From positions 1 to 26,561 of the IMG/VR virus record IMGVR_UViG_3300036766_001218: 26,561 nt of DNA; one strand, given 5' to 3'. Within the stretch, counting starts at the first letter, position 1. Every line of letters starts with the position of its first letter. The notes beneath the pieces were generated by a model, which did not search any database, was not told the origin of the DNA, and saw nothing but the letters and a program-made list of their open reading frames with translations. This DNA comes from a virus. Positions 1 to 508 of the stretch are shown one piece after another. The position numbers and the translations under genes are program-made.

Positions 1-101
1 CGGGGTCGGGGTCGGGGTCGGGGTCGCGGTCGCGGTCGGGGTCGGGGTCGGGGTCGGGGTCGGGGTCGGGGTCGGGGTCGTGGTCGGGGTCGGGGTCGGG
101 G
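1..101 (+). repeat. Hexanucleotide array A (GGGGTC type)
   Basis: Sixteen complete hexamers (positions 2-97) plus a final GGGG. Thirteen are GGGGTC, two GCGGTC and one GTGGTC. The array begins outside the window. Runs of four G separated by TC are a classic G-quadruplex-forming pattern on the plus strand. Reading the array in the frame that ends at the TGA of 102-104 gives Ser alternating with Gly, Arg or Trp, the same register as the second array at 151-384. Confidence 0.95.
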
Positions 102-104
102 TGA
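1..104 (+). CDS. 3' end of a Ser-Xaa repeat micro-ORF (partial)
   Basis: The frame of codons TCG alternating with GGG, CGG or TGG is open from the window edge to TGA at 102-104. The complete ORF at 115-387 has the same layout: a TCG register, a TGA that lies inside the next ribosome-binding site, and a hexamer body. By that analogy this is probably the tail of an upstream copy of the same gene. The start is outside the window, so coding is inferred only by analogy and no function can be given. Confidence 0.25.
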   Translation, partial: GSGSGSGSRSRSGSGSGSGSGSGSGSWSGSGSG

Positions 105-109
105 GGAGG
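103..109 (+). promoter_or_regulatory. Strong Shine-Dalgarno for the ORF at 115
   Basis: GAGGAGG lies 5 nt before the ATG at 115. The same motif and the same 5-nt spacing recur before the ATG at 398. This strong plus-strand ribosome-binding site is the main reason to regard the repeat ORFs as translated on this strand. Confidence 0.6.
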
Positions 110-150
110 ATCGAATGAACGCAGCAATGCTCAGCGCGGGATTCGACTCG
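103..150 (+). repeat. Duplicated RBS and gene start, copy 1
   Basis: GAGGAGG, a 5-nt spacer and then 36 bases from ATG at 115 to 150. The 36 bases are identical to 398-433. The spacer differs (ATCGA here, CGCAA in copy 2). The two starts are 283 bp apart, so the hexamer array plus gene start forms a tandemly duplicated module. Confidence 0.9.
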
Positions 151-387
151 TCGTGGTCGCGGTCGCGGTCGTGGTCGGGGTCGTGGTCGGGGTCGTGGTC
201 GCGGTCGTGGTCGGGGTCGTGGTCGTGGTTGCGGTCGCGGTCGGGGTCGGGGTCGCGGTCGGGGTCGTGGTCGCGGTCGTGGTCGCGGTCGCGGTCGCGG
301 TCGTGGTCGCGGTCGCGGTCGTGGTCGATGTCGGGGTCGCGGTCGATGTCGGGGTCGCGGTCGCGGTCGTGGTCGTGGTCGGGGTGA
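115..387 (+). CDS. Ser-Xaa dipeptide-repeat micro-protein (unknown)
   Basis: A 90-aa ORF with ATG 5 nt after a perfect GAGGAGG. Residues 1-12 are MNAAMLSAGFDS, shared exactly with the ORF at 398. The remaining 78 residues come entirely from the hexamer array and read as Ser alternating with Trp, Arg, Gly or occasionally Met. Hexamer gain or loss keeps the frame, so length could vary without breaking the ORF. The TGA at 385-387 overlaps the next ribosome-binding site, which suggests coupling to the ORF at 398. I recognise no domain. The product would be low-complexity, basic and Trp-rich. It may instead be a non-coding array that expanded inside a small gene. Confidence 0.35.
   Translation: MNAAMLSAGFDSSWSRSRSWSGSWSGSWSRSWSGSWSWLRSRSGSGSRSGSWSRSWSRSRSRSWSRSRSWSMSGSRSMSGSRSRSWSWSG
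151..384 (+). repeat. Hexanucleotide array B (39 units, degenerate)
   Basis: 234 bp, exactly 39 hexamers of the form TCGNGG with N being G, C or T. A few units are altered, for example ATG in place of NGG, and one TTG in place of TCG near 230. It is more varied than array A, suggesting an older or more recombined tract. It is fully in frame with the ATG at 115. The complementary strand is also open, reading as Thr alternating with Ala, Pro or Thr. Confidence 0.95.
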
Positions 388-392
388 GGAGG
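386..392 (+). promoter_or_regulatory. Strong Shine-Dalgarno for the ORF at 398
   Basis: GAGGAGG with 5-nt spacing to ATG 398. It overlaps the TGA (385-387) of the preceding repeat ORF. Confidence 0.6.
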
Positions 393-433
393 CGCAAATG
401 AACGCAGCAATGCTCAGCGCGGGATTCGACTCG
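386..433 (+). repeat. Duplicated RBS and gene start, copy 2
   Basis: Second copy of the GAGGAGG, 5-nt spacer and 36-bp gene start found at 103-150. After position 433 the sequence leaves the repeat and becomes unique, so this copy holds the only non-repeat continuation of the gene start visible here. Confidence 0.9.
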
Positions 434-508
434 GCCGAGCTGGCGACTAGGCCCGGTGACGGACTGATACGGCGAGGCACAAAAGCAGAAACGCCGCCGA
501 ACCCCTGA
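398..508 (+). CDS. 36-aa micro-protein (unknown), repeat-free form
   Basis: ATG 398 follows GAGGAGG by 5 nt. The 36-aa product starts with MNAAMLSAGFDS, exactly as the 90-aa repeat ORF upstream, then continues into ordinary sequence (AELATRPGDGLIRRGTKAE) and ends at TGA 506-508. It may be the ancestral gene whose 5' end was copied together with the hexamer arrays. The stop is followed in the same frame by an open stretch leading into the next small ORF. No function is recognised. Coding rests on the ribosome-binding site and the conserved start only. Confidence 0.45.
   Translation: MNAAMLSAGFDSAELATRPGDGLIRRGTKAETPPNP

Follow-up and report, generated by a model that had tools for sequence, protein, structure and literature searches.

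Introduction

Eukaryotic Sm proteins with RG-rich tails and the SR and RGG families of RNA-binding proteins combine low-complexity arginine with glycine or serine in a sticker-spacer composition. The nearest published parallel to the system described here is found in the Sm ribonucleoproteins of Borgs, extrachromosomal elements that encode an Sm protein with a fast-evolving, predicted-disordered amino-acid tandem repeat, the unit length being a multiple of three (PMC9879509). In Borgs the repeat forms an N-terminal fusion with the Sm protein and varies from one Borg to another (PMC9879509). Hfq is the next parallel after the Borg proteins and consists of an Sm-fold core and a disordered C-terminal arm which tunes RNA binding; in E. 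coli the arm is in cis and its tip is acidic (PMC5606850).

Here two linked and apparently undescribed phage protein families are reported, with hundreds of members from uncultivated phages, which are not named by PHROGs, Pfam, NCBIfam, PADLOC or PDB sequences. One is predicted to have an Sm-like fold, and the other is a micro-protein with a tail in which serine alternates with Trp, Arg or Gly (Ser-X). Unlike the Borg repeat, the Ser-X repeat belongs to a separate, translationally coupled ORF that has a leader of its own; its Ser-[W/R/G] code is fixed, and it occurs in diverse tailed phages. In contrast to the arm of Hfq, the phage arm would be provided in trans and is basic and aromatic. It differs from the RG tails of Sm proteins and from SR/RGG proteins in its strict alternation of Ser with W, R or G, its own gene and its phage origin. 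No description of the Sm-like/Ser-X pair was found in a literature search, most subscription journals being outside its reach. The pair appears to be new as a system, and the fold on which it builds is already known.

Results

Tandem micro-gene copies at the left end of the window

The window, that is the whole stretch of DNA analysed, is an entire linear IMG/VR record of 26,561 b which starts inside an array. The 3′ part of this first Ser-Gly/Arg/Trp array lies at positions 1–104 of the plus strand, with 16 complete TCGNGG units (6–101) and a TGA at 102–104 in the same register. The stop of copy 1 is overlapped by the ribosome-binding site of copy 2, GAGGAGG (103–109), followed on the same strand by the ATG at 115 and the leader MNAAMLSAGFDS (115–150), to which other leaders of the family are related. 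The array of copy 2 (151–387, plus strand) comprises 39 hexamers fully in frame with this ATG and encodes a 78-residue Ser-[Arg/Trp/Gly] tail that ends at TGA 385–387. The hexamers at 151–384 are TCGCGG (14), TCGTGG (13), TCGGGG (9), TCGATG (2) and TTGCGG (1). A further plus-strand GAGGAGG at 386–392 precedes copy 3 (398–508), which has the same leader and no array and reads 36 aa of ordinary sequence to the TGA at 506–508. Copy 3 is probably a decayed duplicate. A block from about 97 to 150 is shared with copy 3 with 3 mismatches, within which 115–150 is exactly identical to 398–433. An earlier note on this DNA had described the arrays, the GAGGAGG sites, the two 36-bp starts, the stops, the register of both arrays and the array-less third start, and the sequence recheck confirmed each of them at the positions given above.

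The stretch 115–387 has the leader, the in-frame Ser-X pairs and the stop at the end of the array by which the family is defined below. The window is a multi-copy member of this family, with at least two tandem micro-gene copies. The leader of copy 1 and the expected Sm-like gene, if present, would lie beyond the left end of the contig. An HMM search of the 26,561-b record gave no match to the Sm-like gene, which would be expected to the left of the first array, inside which the contig starts. For the leader DNA of the window, IMG/VR contains no second exact match, and blastn of positions 102–900 against annotated phages gave no match. Close relatives of a lysin-like neighbour gene in the window are likewise absent from IMG/VR.

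Tandem units of ribosome-binding site, leader and array were present in 37 of 187 loci, in 2–6 copies, and the leader is kept between the copies. Such copy numbers agree with the further copy that the earlier note expected to the left of the contig. In locus L276 (44–2400), six leader copies (MNAGLLRAGxDS...) with TCT-type arrays are arranged in tandem around the Sm-like gene.

A family of Ser-X micro-proteins

The repeat of the window codes for the tail of a micro-protein, (Ser-[Trp/Arg/Gly])n, which is preceded by a leader of some 12 residues. Family members were defined by a leader of about 8–14 residues, at least five in-frame Ser-X pairs and a stop at the end of the array; the leader consensus across the family is M-N-x-A-[IVM]-[LM]-R-[AT]-G-[FY]-[DE]-x. 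IMG/VR was scanned for nine consecutive TCGNGG units, a search blind to leader and frame. At least 119 contigs were obtained, most of them in the same register and with a similar type of leader. In the 119 arrays among the matches listed, the stop in the Ser-X frame fell at a median of 0 nt past the array, as against 79 and 101 nt for the two alternative frames. An in-frame ATG within 90 nt upstream was present for 91/119 arrays in the Ser-X frame and for 23/119 and 19/119 in the others, again among the matches listed. The Ser-X register is thus not due to chance, since both stop and ATG positions favour it over the other two frames.

The (Arg-Gly)n product that TCGNGG arrays would yield in the +1 frame, which is the frame of the Sm-like gene, and the (Pro-Arg)n product of the reverse strand were rejected as general products, as TCA and AGC arrays encode other residues or stops in these frames. 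A scan of bacterial and archaeal genomes for the hexamers yielded mostly unrelated repeats, and only L129, L188 and L222 were phage-like. The bacterial SW arrays (L128, L135, L158 and others) are TCGTGG runs antisense to His-Asp (CAC GAC type) repeats of Gammaproteobacteria. The hexamer repeats of Myxococcota have no leader and were not taken as family members.

The tail of the window micro-protein is predicted to be disordered (AlphaFold mean pLDDT 46.7, no secondary structure), and by composition all 111 complete arrays fall on the disordered side of the charge-hydropathy line. In L392, Tyr stands in place of most Trp in the tail, which is consistent with a general need for aromatics. The submitted circular genome MW202573 carries the pair internally, its micro-ORF being annotated as UOF78858.1, 'hypothetical protein', and a degenerate version is internal in the submitted circular genome MW202825. 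No cultured isolate with the pair was found. Short-read phage genomes easily miss Ser-X genes because contigs often break within the arrays.

Codon usage, composition and turnover of the arrays

Each array uses a single Ser codon which differs between phages: among the matches listed, TCG was found in 86 arrays, TCT in 37, TCA in 25, AGC in 23 and AGT in 4. The alternate Ser must be kept at the protein level, because TCN and AGY codons differ by more than one mutation. The X residues are Gly, Arg and Trp in shares of 0.33, 0.32 and 0.26, independent of GC content (Spearman |rho| < 0.07). Arg is encoded exclusively by AGG or exclusively by CGG in 129/139 arrays among the matches listed. The five Ser codons and the GC-independent composition of X argue for selection on the protein, and not on a DNA hexamer or G-quadruplex, and against an artefact. 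Judged by the codons, selection acts on the Ser-X protein.

The X codons are nearly always NGG (GGG in 1335/1407 Gly codons and AGG or CGG in 1304/1362 Arg codons, among the matches listed), and their third bases show much greater uniformity than selection on the protein would need by itself. A role at the nucleic-acid level or a special mode of turnover may lie behind this uniformity. Likely, it arises because TGG can be exchanged for an Arg or Gly codon by a single base only via NGG, and because duplication homogenises the units. A decoy function of NGG, the PAM of Cas9, was considered and set aside, as it leaves the constant Ser unexplained.

The order of W, R and G is near random, save for some block duplications. 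L281 and L283 share 98% over the Sm coding end and the leader and have different arrays; in L015 and L076 the Sm-like gene and leader are nearly identical and the Ser-X arrays are entirely different. Such unlike arrays in near-identical phages suggest fast array turnover, and the N of NGG may be varied in a targeted manner. Diversity-generating retroelements likewise vary one base per codon within a constant coding repeat. The arrays do not fit the pattern of targets of such an element: variation is not confined to adenines, N being the base that changes and the A of TCA, AGC and AGT staying fixed.

The upstream partner is predicted to have an Sm fold

An all-against-all comparison of the ORFs flanking the hexamer arrays was used to find upstream neighbours. 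One gene family lies directly upstream on the same strand in at least 80 array loci. The AlphaFold model of this protein, made with 65 relatives, has a pLDDT of 92.5 and shows the Sm fold, with an N-terminal helix and a five-stranded bent sheet. Almost all of the best Foldseek matches were Sm/LSm proteins, LSM14, Edc3 and SmAP1 being on top, at a modest best E value of 3e-3. Comparison with spliceosomal Sm/LSm and archaeal SmAP proteins gave VIA-align Z values of 9–10. The prediction of an Sm/LSm fold for the upstream partner is thus a high-confidence one, the kinship being one of fold and not of sequence.

By sequence, the protein has no relative in PHROGs, NCBIfam, PADLOC or PDB, and in Pfam only single members gave weak, isolated matches. 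No match to an Sm or Hfq entry was obtained in Pfam, NCBIfam or PDB. When the pair was checked for defence or counter-defence functions, the PADLOC models named neither protein. With the Sm-like protein as query, tblastn gave no match among plasmids, and the matches in 50,697 phage records were confined to two genomes, both uncultivated and from Manatee Spring. The best viral fold match is a DUF6948 phage protein (BFVD A0A6J5MA76; Foldseek E 1.5e-4, TM 0.6), at 17% identity to the Sm-like partner, and Pfam DUF6948 gave no match by sequence. A second class of Sm-like protein (YIYTGKLVGVN...) is homologous to the first (hhalign probability 95.5). The Sm2-like end of this second class, YVQTxAIES, is similar to Hfq on visual inspection, with no match to Hfq models by sequence.

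Pairing of the Sm-like gene and the micro-ORF

The association of the two genes was counted from scans with three Sm-like sub-alignments in which the array was not used; a single profile built from the 65 Sm-like proteins together was too heterogeneous for scanning the collection. The best 80 each of 176, 292 and 353 related stretches were taken. Sm-like genes had to have downstream sequence, and a Ser-X micro-ORF was counted when it contained at least five consecutive Ser-X pairs. Among the matches listed, such an ORF lay directly behind 170/205 distinct Sm-like genes, as against 67/2185 other ORFs on the same contigs. A looser neighbour count (185/205) was discarded in favour of this strict one, since it admitted long ORFs by chance. 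Some Sm-like genes have no adjoining micro-ORF. In L023, L073 and L095 the order is inverted, with the array micro-ORF upstream of the Sm-like gene.

The commonest start of the micro-ORF is at −1, overlapping the Sm stop as ATGA or GTGA (89/170 among the matches listed). The micro-gene thus appears often to be translationally coupled to the Sm-like gene through the ATGA stop/start overlap. Due to this overlap, codon 2 of the leader is usually one with A as its first base (Asn, Lys, Ile, Thr or Arg). Leader distance is correlated with Sm distance (Mantel rho 0.63, 0/300 permutations; 0.55 for pairs with <50% Sm identity), a pattern also expected from plain co-inheritance. The neighbourhood of the pair, out to about 4 kb, includes genes for helicases, exonucleases (including Cas4 and RecE types), RecT, NinB/Orf, HNH endonucleases and terminases, which places the pair mainly among the replication and recombination genes of tailed phages.

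Proposed mode of action and alternative explanations

We tentatively favour, at somewhat less than even confidence, a joint RNA-acting system of the Ser-X micro-protein and the phage Sm-like protein, with an Sm ring as the core and a disordered sticker/spacer tail supplied in trans. The two products would act together. By analogy with other Sm/LSm/Hfq proteins, the Sm-like protein would assemble into a nucleic-acid-binding ring, with RNA as the most likely ligand, and the leader would dock the micro-protein onto this ring. The Ser-X tail would then be a flexible arm given in trans, in which Arg and Trp act as stickers for RNA and for each other and Ser and Gly as spacers; it may be the loose, sticky part of a new phage RNA-binding machine. 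This arm would concentrate or remodel RNA of the phage or the host early in infection, in a manner similar to that of the RG tails of Sm proteins or the C-terminal arm of Hfq, which act in cis. Under this proposal composition is all that matters, and the arrays therefore change quickly in length and in the order of their units. If it is true, phages own a ribonucleoprotein of the Sm/LSm type whose minimal sticker-spacer tail is encoded by a gene of its own. The pair would then offer a natural system for testing how disordered low-complexity chains tune Sm rings and form condensates. A general point that can be tested with it is which low-complexity features selection keeps while order and length drift.

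The micro-protein could instead be a host-directed effector or toxin, cationic and rich in Trp and Arg, aimed at ribosomes, nucleic acid or the membrane, with the Sm-like protein as a post-transcriptional regulator or antitoxin-like partner. Two small coupled genes, a tail with Arg and Trp at about one third of its residues and a net charge of +0.16 per residue, and the co-divergence of Sm protein and leader are all compatible with it. However, the Sm-like gene comes first and is tightly coupled rather than independently controlled, a hydrophobic stretch for membrane insertion is absent, PADLOC gives no match, and the multiplication of the Ser-X gene noted above would make toxicity higher. An effector or toxin is therefore considered unlikely. 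We regard it as decidedly unlikely that the array works at the RNA level, with (NGGUCG)n-like repeats to which the Sm-like ring binds as to a platform or sponge, and with translation that is incidental or serves only to stabilise the message. Sm proteins do bind repetitive RNA, GG returns at 6-nt intervals in almost all arrays and the sole high-entropy base is N (1.51 bits). Yet the other half of the unit varies among UCG, UCA, UCU, AGC and AGU and encodes Ser throughout, the Arg share of about 0.32 is held with either AGG or CGG, and start, leader and stop are all maintained in the Ser-X frame. A more far-reaching idea, to which little credence is given, is that phages diversify their arrays on purpose, as a ternary code. 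In each lineage SW, SR and SG would be shuffled by a dedicated or recombination-driven mechanism varying only the N of NGG, which would give near-identical phages such as L281 and L283, or L015 and L076, their different chains, and the pair would be a hypervariable ribonucleoprotein or condensate system directed against a fast-changing host target or defence.

The earlier note had offered three readings of the repeat: a length-variable protein family, a regulatory G-quadruplex array translated by chance and an expansion artefact. The first has stood, as a micro-protein of leader and (Ser-[W/R/G])n whose gene in most relatives follows that of a phage Sm-like protein; the second was not borne out as the primary cause, and the third was not supported. 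Reasoning from the unit sequence, two-tier quadruplexes are compatible with (GGN4)n. Long G runs, however, come only from units with G at N, and a kept reading frame and choice of Ser codon, with the alternate Ser retained across TCG, TCT, TCA, AGC and AGT, would be superfluous for a quadruplex, so this reading is very improbable. Simple-sequence expansion or misassembly is brought to mind by the contig ends that frequently fall inside arrays, that of the window included, and by the look-alike hexamers of Myxococcota and the antisense His-Asp repeats of Gammaproteobacteria. It is scarcely credible, since leader, register and Sm neighbour recur alike in hundreds of contigs from different samples with different Ser codons, and the array is internal in the circular genomes MW202573 and MW202825.

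Other features of the window

Most of the remaining window is the structural region of a contractile-tail phage on the minus strand, with genes for sheath, baseplate J and baseplate hub. Adjoining the tail genes, three successive minus-strand Gly-rich ORFs at 2200–5734 are partly alike and probably encode related fibre-like proteins. A cysteine peptidase of the papain family (PF00112) is encoded at 7397–8167, inside the tail region. The minus-strand ORF at 18064–18459 contains a perfect 105-bp tandem repeat of 2.6 copies (18098–18368), which encodes the 35-aa unit SLPIPNLQLPKLPELPSLPDFSWALDLGLSFDFTL.
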